DNA of 64,000 nucleotides from Microbacterium testaceum. GTDB lineage: Bacteria; Actinomycetota; Actinomycetes; Actinomycetales; Microbacteriaceae. The notes under the pieces were generated by a model. The model had not been told where the DNA came from and made no database searches. It worked only from the letters and a program-made list of their open reading frames with translations. Location: positions 2,294,001 to 2,358,000 of the forward strand of contig NZ_CP121699.1 of the NCBI RefSeq assembly GCF_029761935.1. The letters run 5' to 3'. Positions 3,727 to 47,444 of this stretch are shown here, piece by piece (position 1 is the first letter of the stretch; every line of letters begins with the position of its first letter). A program made the position numbers and the translations under genes.

Positions 3727-4764
3727 CTAGCGGCGCGGGTCGATCATCGTCATTCCCGCGGGTGACGCCGAGTCCATCGTCGGCAGCAGGTCGGCCGCCT
3801 CGGCGAGTCCCACCACGCGCTCGACGAGCTCCTGCGGTCGCAGGGCGCCGCTCTCGATGAGCGAGAGCATCTCGGGATAGTCCACCGCGGCCATGCCGTG
3901 GCTGCCGAGCAGGTCGAGTTCCCACGCGATCACGCGGGCCATGGGCATCGAGGTCATGCCGTCGGCGGTCGGGAGCAGCCCGATCTGCACGTGCCGCCCG
4001 CGTCGACGCAGGCTCAGCACGGCGTCGCGCGCCGTCTGGGCGCTGCCGACGGCGTCGACCGAGACGTGGCTGCCGCCCCCGGTGATCTCGTGCACGGCCG
4101 CGGCGATGTCCGAACCGTCGGCGACCAGCGTGTGCTCCGCCCCGAGCCGCTTCGCCGCGTCGAGAGCCGCCGGGGTGCGATCCACCGCGATGACGCGCGC
4201 GCCCAGGGCGGCGCCGATCATCACGGCGCTGAGGCCCACGCCGCCCGCGCCGACGACGGTGATCCACTCGCCCGCCTGCACGCGCGCCCGCCCCGTGAGC
4301 GCACGGTAGGCGGTGGCGAAGCGGCAGCCGAGGGCGGCCGCGGCCTCGAACGAGACGTCGTCGGGAATGCGCACGACGTTCGTGTCGGCCGCGCGCAGCA
4401 CGACGTGCTCGGCGAAGCTCCCCCACTGGGTGAAGCCCGGCTGCTGCTGGTCGGGGCAGACCTGTGCGTTGCCGCCGAGGCACCACTCGCAGGCCCCGCA
4501 GCCCATCACGAAGGGCACCGTCACGCGGTCGCCGACGCTCCAGCGCTGCACGCCGTCGCCGACCTCGACGATCACGCCCGCCAGCTCGTGCCCCGGAACG
4601 TGGGGGAGTGAGACGTCATCGTGCCCGACCCACGCGTGCCAGTCGCTCTTGCACAGGCCCGTCGCGTGCACCTCGACGACGACCCCGCCGGTGGGGGCGC
4701 TCGGGGCCTCGACCTCACGCACCTCGAGGGGTTCGGCCAGGGCATCCATGATCATCGCGCGCAT
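3727..4764 (-). CDS. Zinc-dependent alcohol dehydrogenase
   Basis: This 345-residue medium-chain dehydrogenase/reductase has the normal family length. The catalytic zinc ligands are visible in ATGLCKSDWH and PGHELAG near the N-terminus. The structural zinc site is the four-cysteine loop CGACEWCLGGNAQVC, and the nucleotide-binding motif is GAGGVG in the central Rossmann fold. Two in-frame ATGs lie at 4773 and 4764; the second is preferred because GGGAG is too close to the first and the product then begins MRAMIMDA as in homologues. It should oxidise an alcohol with NAD(P)+; the substrate is not determinable. Confidence 0.85.
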   Translation of the reverse strand: MRAMIMDALAEPLEVREVEAPSAPTGGVVVEVHATGLCKSDWHAWVGHDDVSLPHVPGHELAGVIVEVGDGVQRWSVGDRVTVPFVMGCGACEWCLGGNAQVCPDQQQPGFTQWGSFAEHVVLRAADTNVVRIPDDVSFEAAAALGCRFATAYRALTGRARVQAGEWITVVGAGGVGLSAVMIGAALGARVIAVDRTPAALDAAKRLGAEHTLVADGSDIAAAVHEITGGGSHVSVDAVGSAQTARDAVLSLRRRGRHVQIGLLPTADGMTSMPMARVIAWELDLLGSHGMAAVDYPEMLSLIESGALRPQELVERVVGLAEAADLLPTMDSASPAGMTMIDPRR

Positions 4765-4915: not shown

Positions 4916-7900
4916 TCAGGCGTGCCGGCGACGGCGCAGAAGGAGCAGCCCCGCGCCGAGACCACCGAAGACCAGGGCCAGGATGCCGAGGGCCAGAGGC
5001 ATCTCGGAGCCGGTGGCGGCCAGACCGCCGCCGGCCGCCGCGGTCCCGCCGGATCCGCCGACGGTGCCCGCCGGGGTGCCGGGGGTACCCGTGCCCGTTC
5101 CGGAGCCGTCGCCCCCTCCCGCGCCATCCCCCGGTGCGGCCCCCGCCACGACCGTGACGGTCGCGGACCGCGCCTGCTCGAGGTTGCCGGCCACGTCGGT
5201 GGAGCGGAACTGCACGAGGTGGTCGCCGGCGCCGGTGAGCGTCACGCTCGAGCCCGCGGTCCACGTCGTCCCGCCGTCGAGCGAGTACTCGGTCAGGGCG
5301 ACGCCCGAGGTGGCATCCGTCGCCTGGAACACCACCGTCGCCTCGGCGGGCGCCAGGGCCTGGAACACCGCGGCCGGCTGCATGAGGCGCAGCAGCGTCG
5401 AGGGCTTCTCGGTCGAGGCCTCGGTGGTTGGGGCGGCCGTGTCGATGCGGATGGGGAGCGATCCGGCGACCTCGGGCACCTCGGTGCCGTTCCACAGGGC
5501 GCGGTAGTCGACGGTGTGGTCGCCGTCGGTGGTGACGTCGAAGTCCGGTCCCGTCTGCCACGCCCCGCCGTCGAGGCGGTACTGCACCTCGACGTCGGTG
5601 TTGCCGTCGTGCGACAGGCTCACCGGGACGGGAGCGGCGGTGTACCAGCCGGCGGCGTTGGGCTGCGTCCGCAGGAACGGCTCGATGTGCGCGATCCCGC
5701 CGGCCTCGGCCACGAAGAACTCGGGGATCTTCAGGTACGACCCGGGGGTCGCGAAGGTGAAGCGCAGGCCCGTCGCCAGGACCTTCTGGAACGACAACGT
5801 CGTCTCGACGCCGTTCGTCACCGTGGGCGCGTCACCGGTGAGGGGCAGCGGCTTCCACTGGTTGTCGTGGTAGTCCCGGTACTCGAGCGAGACACCCGCG
5901 ATCGATCCCTCGAGGTTCGTGAAGCGCACCTCGTTCAGGCGGTGGATCTCCAACGTCTCCATCGTGAAGGTCGCGGAGTCCTTGTAGCCCGCGTCGGTCC
6001 AGGTCGACCACGCCGTGCCGAGTCGGCCGTCGCACGCGTTGGAGGCGGGCATCGTGGCCCACTTCGTCTGGTGGAACGATGCCGACACCGTCGTGCCCAT
6101 ATCGCGGCATACGTTCACGGCCGAGGCGTTGCCCCACACGTCGACCTCAGAGATCGACTGCCACGTGTTCGCCTGGCTCGTCAGCCGGAGCCGCAGGGCG
6201 CTGGCCGCCGGAAGCGTGCGGGCGTCGATCACGGCCGTGGGGGCCGGGGCGCTGGCATCCTGAGCGAGAGTCGCCTCGACCGCGGTGTCCTTCCATGCGC
6301 CCGAGGCGTCGCGGTACTGCACCTGGATGCGCGAGGGCCAGGTCGCCGTCGCCCCGTCCTTGTAGGTGTGCACGACGATCGAGTCGAACGTGCGGTCGGT
6401 GCCCCAGTCGAACTGCAGCCAGCTGTCGCGCGGGTAGCCGTTTCCGGTCCAGTCGTCCCAGCCCTTGGCCGTGGGGTTGCCGTCGGTGAGGGTGGCGACG
6501 AGGTCGGAGCGGCTCGACGCGGTGACGGTCGCCTCGGGGGCGATGTCGGCGATGCCGGGCTCGGCGACCGTGATCGTGCGCTGGAACGAGCGACCGGCGG
6601 TGAAGTTCGCGTCGGCGGCGAGGGTGCCGGTGATCGTCTGCGGGCCGAGCACGCTCGTGTCGATCGTCGACCAGGTGACGGCGACCGGGGCGGTGCCGGC
6701 GGAGGTGTCGACGGGGACGCTGGTGGGCAGCTGCGGGATGGCGCCGCGGCGGACGGTCTCGGGCAGGCCGGTGGTCACGGCGCGCCAGGTGCCGTGGCCG
6801 AAGCCCTTGTCATCCCAGTACGAGGCGTCCCATCCCTTGCCGTACCGCGCGGGGTCCTCGGCGGCGGGGTTGTGCATCTCGAGGCGTCCGTTCTCGCCCA
6901 CCGTGAGCGGGAGCCAGACGTAGGTCGAGTCGGACTTGCCCTCGTTCCAGCGGTCGCCCATGTAGACGAACTTGCCCGGCTCGAGTTCGAACACGTTCGT
7001 CGTCTGCGAGCCGAACGTCGAGCGGCGCACGTCGCCGATCGAGAGCAGGCCGTCACCCCCGTCGGGGATGGCGTTGTACGAGACGGTCTCGTTCACGTCG
7101 TTCGCGTCGACACCGCGGATCCACGTGCCCATCAGGTTCTTCGTCGTGTAGTACGTCTGCGGGTTGGGCGCCCAGCCGGTCGCGCCCGAGGTGACGACGC
7201 TGTAGGTGCCGTCGCGCTCGAAGATCGCGGGCGCCTCGAGGTGGCCGCACTCCTTGACGATCTGGAAGTCCTTCCCCCGTTCCGGCGCCGCGGGGGTCCC
7301 GTCGGCGAAGACGTAGGGGTAGCGGCCGTCTTCGGAGTACTGGTTGACGTCGAGGGTGTCGCGATCGGTGGTGTGGGTGACGTTCGTGTAGGTGTCGTCG
7401 AGGGCGGCGACGTAGAGGCTGTAGTTCTCCTCCGATGAGTACGAGATGTATGCCTTGCCGTCGTCGTCCTGGAACACCGTCATGTCGCGCGCCTGACCGG
7501 GGACCGCGTACGGCGTGCAGGCCTGGTAGTCGGTGCGGTTGGGCATGCGGAAGGCGCCCGTCATGCGGAACGGGCCCGCGGGCGAGTCCGATACGGCGAC
7601 GGCCGCCATCGACCGCGCGTAGGTGCTGCCGCCGGGCTCGGTGCGCCCGTCGGCGTGCCACCACATGACCCACTTGCCGGTCTTGGCGTTGTGCAGCACC
7701 TTGGGGCGCTCGAAGATCGCGGTGTAATCCGAGTTCTGCGTCGAGTTGAGGTGGTACGCGAGGGCGTCGATCTTCTCGGTGCGCGGCTGGCCGTTCTCGT
7801 CGACGGTGTCGTACAGATCCTCGAAGTAGGGCGTGAGCAGGTCGTCGCGCGTCGAGATGCTGCGGAGCGCGTCTCCGAGGTTCGTCCAATTCTTGGCATC

Positions 7901-12226: not shown

Positions 12227-13357
12227 ATGACCCCGCTCGACGACCCCGCTCTCGTGCGCGTTCTGGCAGCCGACGGCACGCTGGCCCCCACGCCCGCCGC
12301 CGAGCGCTACCTGCCGCTCATCGACGCCCTGACCGACGCCGAACTCGAGACCTTCTACCGCGACATGGTCTCGATCCGCGCGTTCGACGTGCAGGCCACC
12401 AACCTGCAGCGCCAGGGGCAGCTCGCCCTGTGGCCGCCGTCCTTCGGGCAGGAGGCCGCGCAGGTCGGCTCCGCTCGCGCGGCCCGCGCGCAGGACCATG
12501 TCTTCCCCTCGTATCGCGAGCACGTGGTCACCCGCATCCGCGGCGTCGACCCGCTCGACATCATCCGCCTCATGCGCGGACTCACGCACGGCGGGTGGGA
12601 CCCGACCGACCCGAAGAACGGCAACACGCACATCTACACGCTGGTCCTGGGCGCGCAGACGCTGCACGCCACGGGTCTTGCGATGGGCCTGGTGTTCGAC
12701 GGAAAGAGCGGCACGGGCGACCCCGAGCGCGACGAAGCCGTGATCGTCTACTACGGCGACGGCGCCTCGAGCCAGGGCGACGTGCACGAGGCGATGGTCT
12801 TCGCCGCGAGCTTCCAGACCCCCGAGGTGTTCTTCCTGCAGAACAACCAGTGGGCCATCTCGGTGCCGGTCGCGACGCAGTCGCGCTCGCCGCTGTACAA
12901 GCGCGGTGAGGGCTACGGCATCCCGAGCCTCCAGGTCGACGGAAACGACGTGCTCGCGAGCTACGCCGTGTCGAAGGTCGCCCTCGACGAGGCGCGCGCA
13001 GGCGGCGGCCCCCGCGCGATCGAGGCGATGACCTACCGCATGGGCGCGCACACGACCAGCGACGATCCCACCAAGTACCGCACCTCCGACGAAGAGAAGG
13101 CGTGGGCCGGGCGCGACCCGATCGCCCGCATGCGCGCCTACCTCGAGGGACGCGGCGCCTCGCAGCAGTTCTTCGACGACGCGGATGCCGAGGGTGCCGC
13201 CCTCGCCGACGACGTGCGCGTGCGCACGAACGAGCTCGGTGGCATCCCGCGCGTGCACATGTTCGAGAGCGTCTACTCCGAAGCCCACGCGCTGATCGCC
13301 GAGGAGCAGCGCTGGCTCGACGACTACGAGAACTCGATGGAAGGGGGCGCGCAGTGA
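12227..13357 (+). CDS. 2-oxoacid (branched-chain/pyruvate) dehydrogenase E1 component, alpha subunit
   Basis: This 376-residue thiamine-diphosphate subunit shows QEAAQVG, SYREH near the active site, and the ThDP/Mg motif YYGDGASSQGDVHEAM...NNQW. The ATG lies six bases after TAGCGT (leaderless). Its stop overlaps the GTG of the beta subunit (GTGA), ensuring matched synthesis. With the beta subunit it decarboxylates a 2-oxo acid and passes the acyl group to the E2 lipoyl arm. The separate alpha/beta architecture and the nearby aminotransferase favour a branched-chain 2-oxoacid complex; pyruvate cannot be excluded. Confidence 0.9.
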   Translation: MTPLDDPALVRVLAADGTLAPTPAAERYLPLIDALTDAELETFYRDMVSIRAFDVQATNLQRQGQLALWPPSFGQEAAQVGSARAARAQDHVFPSYREHVVTRIRGVDPLDIIRLMRGLTHGGWDPTDPKNGNTHIYTLVLGAQTLHATGLAMGLVFDGKSGTGDPERDEAVIVYYGDGASSQGDVHEAMVFAASFQTPEVFFLQNNQWAISVPVATQSRSPLYKRGEGYGIPSLQVDGNDVLASYAVSKVALDEARAGGGPRAIEAMTYRMGAHTTSDDPTKYRTSDEEKAWAGRDPIARMRAYLEGRGASQQFFDDADAEGAALADDVRVRTNELGGIPRVHMFESVYSEAHALIAEEQRWLDDYENSMEGGAQ

Positions 13358-14331
13358 CCGACAACATGCCGATCAGCCGCGCGCTGAACGCCGGGCTCCG
13401 TCGCGCGCTCGAGACCGACGACCGCGTGCTGCTCATGGGTGAGGACATCGGCCCGCTCGGCGGCGTCTTCCGCGTGACCGAGGGCCTGCAGAAGGACTTC
13501 GGTCCGCGCAGGGTCATCGACTCCCCGCTCGCGGAGTCGGGGATCGTCGGCACCGCGATCGGTCTCGCGATGGGTGGCTTCACGCCCGTCCTCGAGATCC
13601 AGTTCGACGGGTTCGTCTTCCCCGCCTTCGACCAGATCACCTCGCAGCTCGCGAAGATCACGAACCGCCACGAGGGCGCGGTGCGCATGCCCGTCGTCAT
13701 CCGCATCCCCTACGGCGGACACATCGGCGCGGTCGAGCACCACCAGGAGAGCCCCGAGGCGTACTTCACGCACACGGCAGGGCTCCGGGTGGTCAGCCCC
13801 TCGAACGCGAACGATGCTTACTGGATGATCCAGCAGGCGATCGAATCGCCCGACCCCATCGTCTTCCTCGAGCCGAAGGCCAAGTACTGGCAGAAGGGCG
13901 AGGTCGACCTCGAGGCCCCCGCGCTGCCGTTGCACGCGAGCCGCATCGTCCGCCGCGGCACCGACGTCACGCTCGTCGGACACGGCGCGATGGTGACGAC
14001 CCTGCTGCAGGCCGCCGCTCTCGCCGAGAGCGAGGGCACGAGCTGCGAGGTCATCGACCTGCGTTCGCTCTCGCCCGTCGACTACGGCCCCCTGCTCGAC
14101 TCGGTGCGCCGCACCGGCCGCATGGTCTACGCGCAGGAGGCGCCGGGCTTCACCTCGCTCGGCTCCGAGATCGCCGCGACCGTCATGGAGAAGGCTTTCT
14201 TCGCGCTCGAGGCGCCCGTGCTGCGGGTGTCGGGGTTCGACGTGCCCTTCCCGCCCGCGAAGCTCGAGGGCACCTACCTGCCCGACGCCGACCGCATCCT
14301 CGAGGCCGTCGACCGGTCTCTGGCGTACTGA
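13354..14331 (+). CDS. 2-oxoacid dehydrogenase E1 component, beta subunit
   Basis: A 325-residue transketolase-like beta subunit, coupled to the alpha gene by a GTGA overlap. Typical motifs are LLMGEDIGPLGGVFRVT, DSPLAESGIVGTAIGLAM, EIQFDGFVFPAFDQ, the His-bearing GGHIGAVEHHQESPEAYF and the C-terminal GFDVPFP. It completes the heterotetrameric E1 enzyme. The length is normal. The gap to E2 (14332-14445) contains a long composite palindrome. Confidence 0.92.
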   Translation: MTDNMPISRALNAGLRRALETDDRVLLMGEDIGPLGGVFRVTEGLQKDFGPRRVIDSPLAESGIVGTAIGLAMGGFTPVLEIQFDGFVFPAFDQITSQLAKITNRHEGAVRMPVVIRIPYGGHIGAVEHHQESPEAYFTHTAGLRVVSPSNANDAYWMIQQAIESPDPIVFLEPKAKYWQKGEVDLEAPALPLHASRIVRRGTDVTLVGHGAMVTTLLQAAALAESEGTSCEVIDLRSLSPVDYGPLLDSVRRTGRMVYAQEAPGFTSLGSEIAATVMEKAFFALEAPVLRVSGFDVPFPPAKLEGTYLPDADRILEAVDRSLAY

Positions 14332-14358
14332 TCCGCTCTTCCTCTCCCCGCCATGAAC

Positions 14359-44409: not shown

Positions 44410-44433
44410 TGACTTCATGTCGACATGAAGTCA
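44410..44433. promoter_or_regulatory. Perfect 24-bp palindrome, operator of the MerR regulator
   Basis: The 24 bases from 44410 to 44433 (half-site TGACTTCATGTC) are a perfect inverted repeat with no spacer, located between the divergent flavoprotein and merR genes. The merR ATG (44425) lies inside it. Length and position fit autorepression of merR and control of the flavoprotein promoter. Confidence 0.75.
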
Positions 44434-44973
44434 AGCGCGGCGAAGGACGGCGAGTCGATCGGCGAGGCGGCGGCGCGGTTCGGGCTCGAGACGCATGTCC
44501 TGCGGCACTGGGAGGACGCGGGACTCCTGGATCCGGCTCGGGATGCCGCGGGCCGACGCCGCTACGTCGAGGGCGACAGCGTGCGCATCGCGGTGATTTT
44601 GCGGAACAAGGCCGCGGGGCTCTCGCTCGACCAGATCCGGGTGCTGCTCGACGACGGAGCCCCCGACCGGCATCGCGTGCTCGAGGAGCACGTCGCGGAG
44701 TTGGACCGACGTGCGGCCGACATCGCCCAGGCCCGCGCCATGACCGAGCACGCCCTGCGCTGCCGCGCGCACGACATCACCGAGTGCCCGCGCTTCCGCA
44801 GCCACGTCGCCGACGTGCTGTCGGGGGAGGCGCGGTGGCTGCTCGTCCACACCGAGCCGATGGGCGGGCCCATCCCCAGCTCGCCGTCCGAGGCGACGCT
44901 CGTGGGTGAGTCAGGCCGTAAGCCGGTCGCGCTCGAAGTACCGCGCGTGGGTGCGCTGAACCGTTGCGAGTGA
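44425..44973 (+). CDS. MerR-family regulator with C-terminus altered by an insertion
   Basis: A 182-residue regulator. The winged-helix DNA-binding domain covers about residues 10-80 (SIGEAAARFGLETHVLRHWEDAGLLDPARD) and is followed by a dimerisation coiled coil (about 85-115). Residues C113 and C121 could be sensory. After ...PIPSSPSEAT the reading frame passes into the inserted cassette, adding about 24 foreign residues before the stop at 44973. The repeat copy at 46014-46048 preserves what looks like the original ending, ...SEATRAN-stop (46057-46059). The last 63 bp overlap the cassette's 73-residue gene on the other strand. Confidence 0.82.
   Translation: MKSSAAKDGESIGEAAARFGLETHVLRHWEDAGLLDPARDAAGRRRYVEGDSVRIAVILRNKAAGLSLDQIRVLLDDGAPDRHRVLEEHVAELDRRAADIAQARAMTEHALRCRAHDITECPRFRSHVADVLSGEARWLLVHTEPMGGPIPSSPSEATLVGESGRKPVALEVPRVGALNRCE
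44863..44897. repeat. 35-bp direct repeat, left copy
   Basis: Identical over 35 bases to 46014-46048 (begins GGCGGGCCCATCC, ends GTCCGAGGCGAC). It lies inside the merR coding sequence. Confidence 0.95.
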
Positions 44974-45132
44974 GTCGCTGTTGAGCGAGACGATTTCCCA
45001 GTCGTCGCTCTCGCGTGCGTCTTCCAACTCAAGACGAAGACGGAGCGCATCGCGATGGCCGGTCGAACCGGGGAAGCTGTGGACGCGACGTTCACCGCTC
45101 AGGCGGTTGTACTCGATGACGAATCCAGCCAT
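44911..45132 (-). CDS. 73-residue partner of the RelA/SpoT-domain protein (candidate antitoxin)
   Basis: The ATG lies two bases after the stop of the RelA/SpoT gene, with a strong GAGGGGGG ribosome site in the upstream gene's end, so the pair is cotranslated. The product (MAGFVIEYNRLSGERRVHSF...HARYFERDRLTA) is small, charged and has no membrane segment. It contains an F-x-G-S-T-G-H-R-D-A-L-R-L-R helix and a DDWEIVSL strand. No family was recognised. A role as antitoxin or regulator of its neighbour is inferred from size and coupling only. Confidence 0.6.
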   Translation of the reverse strand: MAGFVIEYNRLSGERRVHSFPGSTGHRDALRLRLELEDARESDDWEIVSLNSDSLATVQRTHARYFERDRLTA

Positions 45133-45134
45133 GA

Positions 45135-45962
45135 TCAGCCCCCCTCTTTCTCCGCGCGTTGATCGTGCAGCAGATTTCTTAGACGATCGAGATCAGAGCG
45201 GAGCTTCAGCTCGTTAGAAAGGTTCCGCTCTTCCAGTATTTCTACCCTACGGCGGGCTGCGCGGTAGTGCGCCCTGGTGCGAATCCCGTCGGGAAGTTCA
45301 TCGAGAGACATCAGGAGAGTGGCGATCTCGTTGCGGTCCTTCTCGATCTGGGCAACCCTTTTCGTCGAGATCGCGCGAAGGGATAGAACGATCTGACGCT
45401 CGATCTCCCCTTCCGGCAGCGCTTCGTATCGGATACCCCGGCCGAACAGGTCGGCGGCGACCTCGTACATGTTTGCCCAGTCGCCCTGGAGGTGCGTCCG
45501 GACCTGCACTTCGACCCGAGCGTCGAGCCGCAACCACAGATGGACCGCGCGATACCCGGAATGTGGCGCACCGCGCATGTCTCGGACGCAGTCCGGAAGG
45601 GGATGTCGGAACAAGCCCGCGATGGCATTGACTACCGCATCCTGCTCGTCGAGTGTCATCTCCGCCTCGAAACGGACCCCGGCCACGTCTTGCACGCTGG
45701 GGAGAGGAGTGCGGGGGTCGCGCTGGAGCTTTTGGCGCAGGGTGTCCAGCGTCTTCGGGCGGGAGGTGATCTCGTAGGACCGACTTCCGAGGAGCGGCGT
45801 CCAATCCAACCCCCCGATCGCCGACTGGACGTATTCCGCGAGGTCGTTGTACCAGAGCATTACCTCGCCATAGGACGGGGTCGAGCCGCTGGGGGGCTCG
45901 CCTGTCCTGATCTGACGGCTCAGCCGCTTCAGCTGGTTCGCTGACCACGGCATCGGTTCCAT
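45135..45962 (-). CDS. RelA/SpoT nucleotidyltransferase-domain protein (small alarmone synthetase / toxSAS candidate)
   Basis: A 275-residue single-domain RelA/SpoT protein. Synthetase motifs are intact: RPKTLDTLRQKL (68-79), QDVAGVRF (91-98), HSGYRAVHLWL (134-144) and VEVQVRTHLQGDWANMYE (150-167). There is no hydrolase, TGS or ACT domain. A C-terminal coiled coil spans about 200-270. It would transfer pyrophosphate from ATP to GDP/GTP, to another nucleotide or to tRNA, as in toxic small alarmone synthetases. ATG 45962 lies six bases after TAGCCT (leaderless); a second ATG at 45953 is possible. Confidence 0.82.
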   Translation of the reverse strand: MEPMPWSANQLKRLSRQIRTGEPPSGSTPSYGEVMLWYNDLAEYVQSAIGGLDWTPLLGSRSYEITSRPKTLDTLRQKLQRDPRTPLPSVQDVAGVRFEAEMTLDEQDAVVNAIAGLFRHPLPDCVRDMRGAPHSGYRAVHLWLRLDARVEVQVRTHLQGDWANMYEVAADLFGRGIRYEALPEGEIERQIVLSLRAISTKRVAQIEKDRNEIATLLMSLDELPDGIRTRAHYRAARRRVEILEERNLSNELKLRSDLDRLRNLLHDQRAEKEGG

Positions 45963-46013
45963 GTACGGAGGCTAGCGGCGGCGAGTGCCGGCCCCGACGT
46001 TTTCCACAGGCCA

Positions 46014-46048
46014 GGCGGGCCCATCCCCAGCTCGCCGTCCGAGGCGAC
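46014..46048. repeat. 35-bp direct repeat, right copy
   Basis: Identical to 44863-44897. From here the frame continues CCC-CGC-GCG-AAC-TAG-type into the presumed native merR stop at 46057-46059, and the -10 box TAGCAT of the helicase gene overlaps that stop. Confidence 0.95.
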
Positions 46049-46070
46049 CCGCGCGAACTAGCATGGGCCG

Positions 46071-47444
46071 GTGACCACGCCGCCCCTTTCCGCCGAGCAG
46101 CAGGCGCTGTTCCGGCTGATCGAGGACACCCGCGAGCACGTCTTCGTCACCGGGCGCGCGGGCACGGGCAAGTCGACCCTCCTGCAGCACCTGGCGTGGA
46201 ACACCAAGAAGCAGATCGCGGTCTGCGCACCCACGGGGGTGGCCGCGCTCAACGTCGAGGGACAGACGATCCACTCGCTGTTCCGCCTGCCGATCGGGCT
46301 CATCGCGAACGGCGATATCGACCAGAACGACGCCACGCGCAAGATCCTGAACGCCATCGACACCCTCGTGATCGACGAGATCTCGATGGTCAACGCCGAC
46401 CTGATGGATGCCATCGACCGCTCGCTCCGCCAGGCGCGCGGTCGACGCTCGGAGCCGTTCGGCGGCACCCAGATCGTCATGTTCGGCGACCCGTACCAGC
46501 TGGCGCCCGTGCCGCCGCGTGGGGACGAGGCGCGCTACATCCGAGATCACTACCGCTCGTTCTGGTTCTTCGACGCGAAGGTGTGGTCGGGCGAGGCCGC
46601 CAGCGACGGTCTCATCGACATCGGCCGCCACGGGGCCGACCTGCACGTGAACGAGCTCGTCGAGATCCACCGGCAGTCCGACCCCGGGTTCAAGCAGCTG
46701 CTGAACGCCGTGCGGTACGGCCGGGTCACCGCCGAGATGGCCGGGGTGCTCAACACCGCGGGTGCGCGCACGCCCCCGCACCCGGCCGACGGCGAGCACC
46801 CGATCATCACGCTCGCGACCCGCAACGACCGCGTCAACACGATCAACCGCAAGCACCTCGATGAGCTCATCGGTCGCACGCAGACCGCGAACGCCGAGAT
46901 CTCGGGCGACTTCGGGCGCGGCGAGGCGAACTACCCGGCCGAGATGGAGCTGACGCTCAAGGTCGGTGCACAGGTGATGTTCCTGCGCAACGACGGCGCG
47001 CAGTTCGGCGAGGCTCCGCGCTGGGTCAACGGCACGATCGGCACCGTGACCCGCATCGCCGGCGACAGCGTGCGCGTCGAGGTCGACGGCATCCAGCACG
47101 ATGTCGAGCCGGCCGTGTGGGAGAGGTACCGCTACGCGTACGACCCGGGGACCAAGAACCTCTCGCGCGAGATCGTCGCGGAGTTCACGCAGTTCCCGCT
47201 GCGCCTGGCGTGGGCCGTGACGATCCACAAGTCTCAGGGCAAGACCTACGACCGAGCGGTCGTCGACCTCGGGGCGGGGGCCTTCGCCCCGGGGCAGACC
47301 TACGTCGCCCTCAGCCGTCTCACCTCGCTCGACGGCCTCTACCTCACGCGGCCGCTCAAGCCGAGCGACATCCGGGTCGACGAGGACGTCCGACGCTTCA
47401 TGAAGCAGGCGTGGCTCTCGCGGCAGGACGCCGCGAAGGCGTGA
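46071..47444 (+). CDS. Pif1-like SF1B DNA helicase / AAA ATPase
   Basis: A 457-residue helicase core. Walker A is GRAGTGKST, Walker B is TLVIDEISM, motif III is MFGDPYQLAPVPPRGDE, and the C-terminal motifs AVTIHKSQGKT and YVALSRLTSLDGLYL are intact. This is the Pif1/RecD2-like layout without accessory domains, implying 5'-to-3' unwinding in repair or replication. GTG 46071 is six bases after TAGCAT (leaderless). Confidence 0.88.
   Translation: MTTPPLSAEQQALFRLIEDTREHVFVTGRAGTGKSTLLQHLAWNTKKQIAVCAPTGVAALNVEGQTIHSLFRLPIGLIANGDIDQNDATRKILNAIDTLVIDEISMVNADLMDAIDRSLRQARGRRSEPFGGTQIVMFGDPYQLAPVPPRGDEARYIRDHYRSFWFFDAKVWSGEAASDGLIDIGRHGADLHVNELVEIHRQSDPGFKQLLNAVRYGRVTAEMAGVLNTAGARTPPHPADGEHPIITLATRNDRVNTINRKHLDELIGRTQTANAEISGDFGRGEANYPAEMELTLKVGAQVMFLRNDGAQFGEAPRWVNGTIGTVTRIAGDSVRVEVDGIQHDVEPAVWERYRYAYDPGTKNLSREIVAEFTQFPLRLAWAVTIHKSQGKTYDRAVVDLGAGAFAPGQTYVALSRLTSLDGLYLTRPLKPSDIRVDEDVRRFMKQAWLSRQDAAKA

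Follow-up and report, generated by a model that had tools for sequence, protein, structure and literature searches.

A PhRel-type toxin-antitoxin pair without an integrase between attachment-like repeats at the 3' end of merR in Microbacterium testaceum

In the chromosome of Microbacterium testaceum, the end of a merR gene is separated from the rest of its reading frame by about 1.15 kb of DNA, and the locus raises the questions of what this block is, how it reached the end of merR and whether it could still be moved. The locus lies in a window of 64,000 nucleotides, by which the whole stretch of DNA analysed is meant. An earlier sequence-only reading had taken the block for a cassette of two genes that used the merR 3' end as an attachment site and was moved in trans by a recombinase encoded elsewhere. 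The coordinates of the features were collected in Table 1.

Table 1. Features of the merR locus, numbered from the first letter of the window.
Feature	Position	Strand	Remarks
merR as it stands now	44425..44973	+	ending RAN lost; a 20-residue tail encoded in the insert takes its place
Left 35-bp repeat (attL-like)	44863..44897	+	within the merR reading frame; one native counterpart each in L004-L006
Inserted DNA between the repeats	44898..46013		1116 bp (1151 bp with one repeat copy)
Antitoxin gene	44911..45132	-	73 aa; begins 2 bp past the toxin stop; a homologue of Phrann gp30 (PHROG 22117, 4.9e-18)
toxSAS toxin gene, PhRel/CapRel type	45135..45962	-	275 aa; Pfam RelA_SpoT, PHROG 4773 (Phrann gp29 family), PADLOC PDC-S33
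Right 35-bp repeat (attR-like)	46014..46048	+	continues as the original end of merR
Displaced native merR 3' end	46049..46061	+	encodes the last residues and the stop
PIF1-type helicase gene	46071..47444	+	right flank; conserved merR neighbour in the relatives examined

The two 35-bp direct repeats were identical and 1151 bp apart. With up to 3 mismatches allowed, the 35-mer was matched only at these two places in the window and not once in 100 shuffles, and the search of the whole 3.38-Mb genome returned the same two copies, by which a common dispersed repeat was ruled out. The left copy was read in frame in merR, which now ends in ...SEAT-LVGESGRKPVALEVPRVGALNRCE, and the right copy continued in ...SEATRAN-stop, the ending that the sequence-only reading had correctly taken for the native one. 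Under a simple base-composition model, about 1e-11 exact 35-bp repeats within 1.2 kb are expected in 64 kb. The genome is a single contig estimated to be 99.94% complete, the site without the insert was found at 29 loci of other genomes and a like layout was met in other genomes. All of this spoke against a chance repeat or an assembly artefact, for which the probability is negligible.

The background of such repeats was estimated in 911 kb of the same genome (the window and 43 further stretches), in which 11 repeat pairs scored at least 45 at a distance of 0.5-6 kb. Besides the pair at merR, nine looked by eye like paralogous coding sequence and one was intergenic around native-looking genes. 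The latter (L203, G000:C1:2780001-2800000, positions 12582-12672 and 14252-14342) was a 91-bp near-perfect direct repeat, 54 bp of it exact, that enclosed two native-looking genes, with one copy upstream of a long DUF222/HNH-like ORF; given the native GC of its interior, it is not a cassette like that of the window.

Relatives were then compared at merR. The protein search gave some match in 196 of 198 same-genus genomes, many of them paralogues, and 30 same-genus merR loci were compared, the 29 outside the own genome (L004-L032) being the best merR matches after its own. In all 29 the PIF1-type helicase gene followed merR, and the compared flanks were 15-151 bp apart, as against 1206 bp here. 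In the three nearest relatives (L004, L005 and L006), the native stretch of 55 bp was colinear, the merR end was uninterrupted, and the single native 35-mer differed from that of the window at 2, 6 and 2 positions, respectively. Given these distances and the single native copy, 1151 bp had been added here, including a second copy of the merR end. The block has therefore been inserted at the 3' end of merR, and relatives keep this site empty and in single copy. None of the 29 loci held the same two genes at this place; other cargo at merR, which had been looked for between the same repeats on the suggestion of the sequence-only reading, was likewise absent from all of them.

The lower GC noted in the sequence-only reading was borne out, the insert having a GC content of 63.2% against 70.5% for the window and a third-position GC of 76% (toxin) and 74% (antitoxin) against 92% in merR and 95% in the helicase gene. 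The insert was filled by two intact minus-strand ORFs, leaving spacers of 13 and 51 bp between the pair and the repeats. Family matches were obtained only for these two genes, and no recombination gene was found in the insert, as had been claimed, nor any transfer gene. An insertion sequence or MITE was ruled out, since no family match to a transposase was found in the insert and none of the 23 inverted-repeat pairs listed had its arms at both insert ends. A consensus scan of the insert for promoters and terminators found none.

The two genes, left unidentified in the sequence-only reading, could be assigned to families. The toxin matched RelA_SpoT (PF04607) at 2.7e-9, above the cut-off, PHROG 4773 at 2e-28 and PADLOC PDC-S33 at 3.4e-16; the PDC-S33 model matched both proteins, the antitoxin weakly, and NCBIfam gave no match for either. 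The toxin was 45% identical to gp29 of phage Phrann over 80% of its length, its profile reached CapRel (7ztb) at 8.5e-4, and its nearest relative showed 69% protein identity. Phrann gp30 was found with the antitoxin as query at 7e-19; a plain tblastn of the antitoxin against phages returned nothing, so the link to gp30 rests on profile or per-locus searches. The catalytic residues of the toxin fold family were kept, including the G-loop tyrosine, whose role in toxSAS toxins is treated in PMC9712102; this residue (Y137, motif GYRAVH) was invariant in 9 and in 17 aligned sequences. Judged by these homologies, the pair is a PhRel/CapRel-type toxSAS toxin with its antitoxin, of a known anti-phage kind.

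Phrann PhRel and ATphRel form a toxSAS pair akin to CapRel, and actinobacterial pairs are usually unfused (PMC9712102). Expressed from a prophage, Phrann gp29/gp30 defends against several phages (PMC9262239). The two genes, their order and their spacing are the same in Phrann gp29-gp30 (PhRel-ATphRel; PMC9712102, PMC9262239) and in the window; in Phrann, however, the pair belongs to a temperate phage of 45 kb and has the integrase gene about 3 kb away, whereas the window pair stands alone in the chromosome between repeats. By homology, the antitoxin would keep the toxSAS enzyme inactive until infection by some phages frees it, and the freed toxin would pyrophosphorylate tRNA ends or make a toxic alarmone, stop translation and abort the infection. 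The pair may serve anti-phage defence in this strain, by analogy with Phrann and CapRel relatives, for which toxicity, neutralisation and phage defence are known.

Toxin matches were found in 10 of the 198 genus genomes, seven of them strong, and a scan of genome contigs gave 44 loci. A fixed repeat test was adopted, with 600-bp flanks and a local alignment score of at least 45; three loci were unscored, and L052, L053 and L054 were omitted as duplicates of L045, L044 and L046. Flanking direct repeats were detected in 10 of the 44 scored pairs, at eight distinct sites, and were absent in the other 34, about three quarters. None of 643 control pseudo-cassettes of 1070 bp, placed elsewhere in the window and the loci, reached 45, the best scoring 39. 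Wider flanks added L048 and L071, and L057, L066 and L078 were dropped as doubtful, which left an accepted set of eight independent pairs.

The accepted repeats measured 35 bp without mismatch at the merR 3' end of the window, 55 bp with 2 mismatches between hsp20 and amidohydrolase genes (L043), 43 bp with 3 mismatches at the glmM 3' end (L046), 206 bp with 2 mismatches at the 3' end of an NADH:flavin oxidoreductase gene of OYE type (L047), 52 bp without mismatch at tRNA-Ala (L048), 29 bp with 1 mismatch at tRNA-Lys (L056), 75 bp with 14 mismatches at tRNA-Ser (L071) and 31 bp with 2 mismatches at tRNA-Val (L072). They showed no mutual resemblance, each site having its own sequence. Repeat-flanked pairs occur in Microbacterium, Rathayibacter and Mycobacterium. 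Searched with Rfam, five loci yielded nothing beyond the tRNA already known near L047.

Several other repeats were not accepted. That of L078 (149 bp) had the look of a repeat dispersed in Bifidobacterium, with a third stretch like it; that of L045 (27/30) was coding-like; that of L057 (32/37) lay inside a gene fragment; and those of L066-L068 (57/68, gapped) were intergenic and confined to one species group. The L057 and L066-L068 repeats are counted among the 10 of 44. In Phrann (L049), a weak 83-bp direct repeat around gp29-gp30 (2099-2181 and 3789-3871) scored 48 against a shuffled best of 31, and was set aside because the two proteins there match weakly. The plasmid search found relatives of the pair, without repeats, on two Arthrobacter-type plasmids. 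On a Pseudarthrobacter plasmid (L051, 3147-3881), a serine-recombinase-family gene lay just upstream of the toxin gene and divergent from it, with TIR and caspase-like genes adjoining. In Gordonia alkaliphila (L081, 5909-6230), a tRNA-Ser gene stood about 230 bp past the antitoxin gene with its 3' end towards the pair, and a second copy was not found.

The pair was read in the direction of the target gene, with its antitoxin end facing the distal repeat, in six of the seven sites at gene or tRNA 3' ends (L046, L047, L048, L056, L071 and L072). Alone among the seven, the window pair reads against its target gene, which counts against one common layout. The native end of the target gene was kept at the glmM and OYE insertions, but not at merR. 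In the glmM case, the distal copy differed from the proximal one at two synonymous codons and one missense codon and, from its sequence, looks like the glmM end of another species. At the glmM ends of 29 other Microbacterium loci, the best repeat score was 27, against 71 in G033 (L133 was unplaced). For the OYE and the amidohydrolase-side insertions, no close relative with an empty site was found, the best OYE relative being 69% identical and the amidohydrolase being present in 2 of the 198 genomes. The toxin gene at the glmM end, in M. esteraromaticum, carried an in-frame stop codon (at about 4344 of L046), and this copy therefore looks inactive; its repeats persist.

Gene 3' ends are typical targets of tyrosine integrases. 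The repeats could also have arisen without an integrase, if transposition or break repair had inserted the block with no site specificity and duplicated 35 bp of the target. The perfect repeat of native merR sequence, the wide range of repeat lengths (29-206 bp) and the intergenic position of L043 would suit such an event, but it accounts poorly for sites at the 3' ends of glmM, the OYE gene, tRNA-Lys, tRNA-Ser, tRNA-Val and tRNA-Ala as well as merR, for an insert lacking both transposase and terminal inverted repeats, and for the existence of an integrase-bearing version (L048). Non-site-specific insertion is thus improbable.

That version was found in M. kyungheense, where 52 bp of the tRNA-Ala gene end (14037-14088) were perfectly repeated at 7420-7471. 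The repeats enclosed 6.6 kb with a tyrosine integrase gene adjoining the tRNA gene (12783-14018; Phage_integrase, 4.4e-12), and the pair lay at the opposite end, with 138 bp between the antitoxin stop and the distal repeat. Like the window unit, this element is bounded by repeats at a gene 3' end and holds the pair near one end; it carries an integrase, whereas the window unit has none. Integrases also occurred near the pair in L057, L070, L077, L080 and L082, without accepted repeats. In Bifidobacterium scaligerum (L082, 3751-4989 and 4995-5997), the integrase gene was directly upstream of the toxin gene and divergent from it; no repeats were found within the 10 kb, and the locus is a candidate for a minimal element of integrase plus pair.

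Elsewhere, the tRNA-Val repeat of L072 serves as a site for integrases. Its 25-mer was present in 23 viral stretches; 17 of the 20 viral records tested had a Phage_integrase match, 16 of them over the cut-off, and in several stretches (L098, L099, L101, L108, L110 and L115) the integrase lay within about 200 bp of the 25-mer. The 23-mer of the merR repeat had no match in 2.9 million viral contigs, and that of the glmM repeat had no viral match. The own genome held three Phage_integrase genes, of which, by NCBIfam, one was over the XerD cut-off, one matched XerC best but under the cut-off, and the third, near 987,600 of G000:C1, was phage-type; the 35-mer was absent from all three stretches around them. 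No integrase or phage that uses the merR site was found in these searches.

With a probability of about two in three, an element once integrated at merR, and the insert is the part of it, devoid of an integrase, that stayed between attL-like and attR-like copies of the merR end. Of the earlier reading, the insertion into the 3' end of merR, the empty single-copy site in relatives, the attachment-like nature of the repeats, the lack of a recombinase inside and the presence of similar units elsewhere are supported. A prophage or integrative island carrying the PhRel-type pair would have integrated by site-specific recombination with a tyrosine recombinase, the merR 3' end acting as attB; the integrase and the remainder would have been lost before or after integration, and the pair with a short upstream region would alone have stayed between attL and attR. 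Because no integrase-bearing parent is known at merR, we infer the deletion step. Within spacers of 13 and 51 bp, the arm-type sites of lambda-like integrases would hardly fit, which counts against this reading; so do the lack of repeats at 34 of the 44 scored pairs, the direction of the window pair against merR, the loss of the native merR end and the failure to find an integrase or virus with the merR site in the searches above. As the pair would punish its own loss, it may be the surviving piece for this reason. For all eight sites, integration at gene ends by site-specific recombination, with the integrase gone, is the simplest account.

The sequence-only reading had the block moving in trans, and this is possible for the window unit. 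In a true mini-element, a phage or island integrase would excise the pair with one attachment site as a small circle, move it and integrate it, and an own integrase would never have been needed. The tight packing in the window and in L046 (spacers of 2 and 65 bp), with a period of 1151 bp in both, fits this idea, as do the differing sites of the strong pairs whose sites were identified (window, L043, L046, L047 and L048), the glmM distal copy resembling another species' gene end, and the orientation of the pair with respect to the lysis genes, which is opposite in the phages Phrann and WST1. However, the different repeat sequence at each accepted site would demand another helper for each; the viral contigs and the stretches around the own integrases yielded no helper for the merR site; and no near-identical cassette was seen at different sites in two compared genomes, the nearest relative having the protein identity of 69% given above. 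A true mini-element is rather unlikely. Similarly unlikely is the wider idea that PhRel-type pairs form a whole class of minimal mobile units, circles of 1.1-1.7 kb that combine a single defence module with a borrowed attachment site; any phage or island integrase recognising that site might carry them, and their site specificity would change between hosts. The glmM copy with its foreign gene end would then be what one such move left behind. Single genomes cannot tell a stranded remnant from a mini-element moved in trans, and the stranded remnant is favoured for the window unit.

The impression that this design has no name held in part. Integrase-less cargo between attL and attR has already been named in streptococci, as the cis-mobilizable element (CIME): an ICE or IME that has decayed, with attL and attR preserved and the integrase and transfer genes gone. 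The smallest reported with cargo is 1.2 kb (PMC7563491, PMC5704250). Common to the CIME so described and the window unit is cargo between attachment-like repeats at a gene 3' end, with no recombination gene. The insert shows CIME-like features in its terminal direct repeats, the empty single-copy site in relatives and the lack of an integrase or transfer gene inside. The window unit differs in standing alone without a neighbouring ICE or IME, in its actinobacterial host, in having a toxin-antitoxin pair as its sole cargo and in that a phage origin is as likely as descent from a conjugative element. It may be a CIME reduced to one defence pair, or at least work in the manner of one, the class being defined by descent and mobilisation and the likeness here by repeats, empty site and missing integrase. 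Repeat-flanked PhRel pairs themselves were not found reported in the literature searched on integrase-less toxin-antitoxin units, PhRel context, att-flanked cargo, CIMEs, Microbacterium merR islands, toxSAS and Phrann.

Prophages and islands are known to carry defence genes as cargo. In the present case, one defence pair is repeatedly nearly all that remains between two attachment sites, alongside an integrase-bearing version. The case yields a search rule: where short repeats at the 3' end of a gene enclose a toxin-antitoxin pair or a defence gene, an island may be present that island finders miss for want of an integrase. It also offers a small, testable system in which to ask if addictive defence pairs outlast everything else in a decaying integrated element, and if borrowed integrases are still able to move units of about 1 kb.
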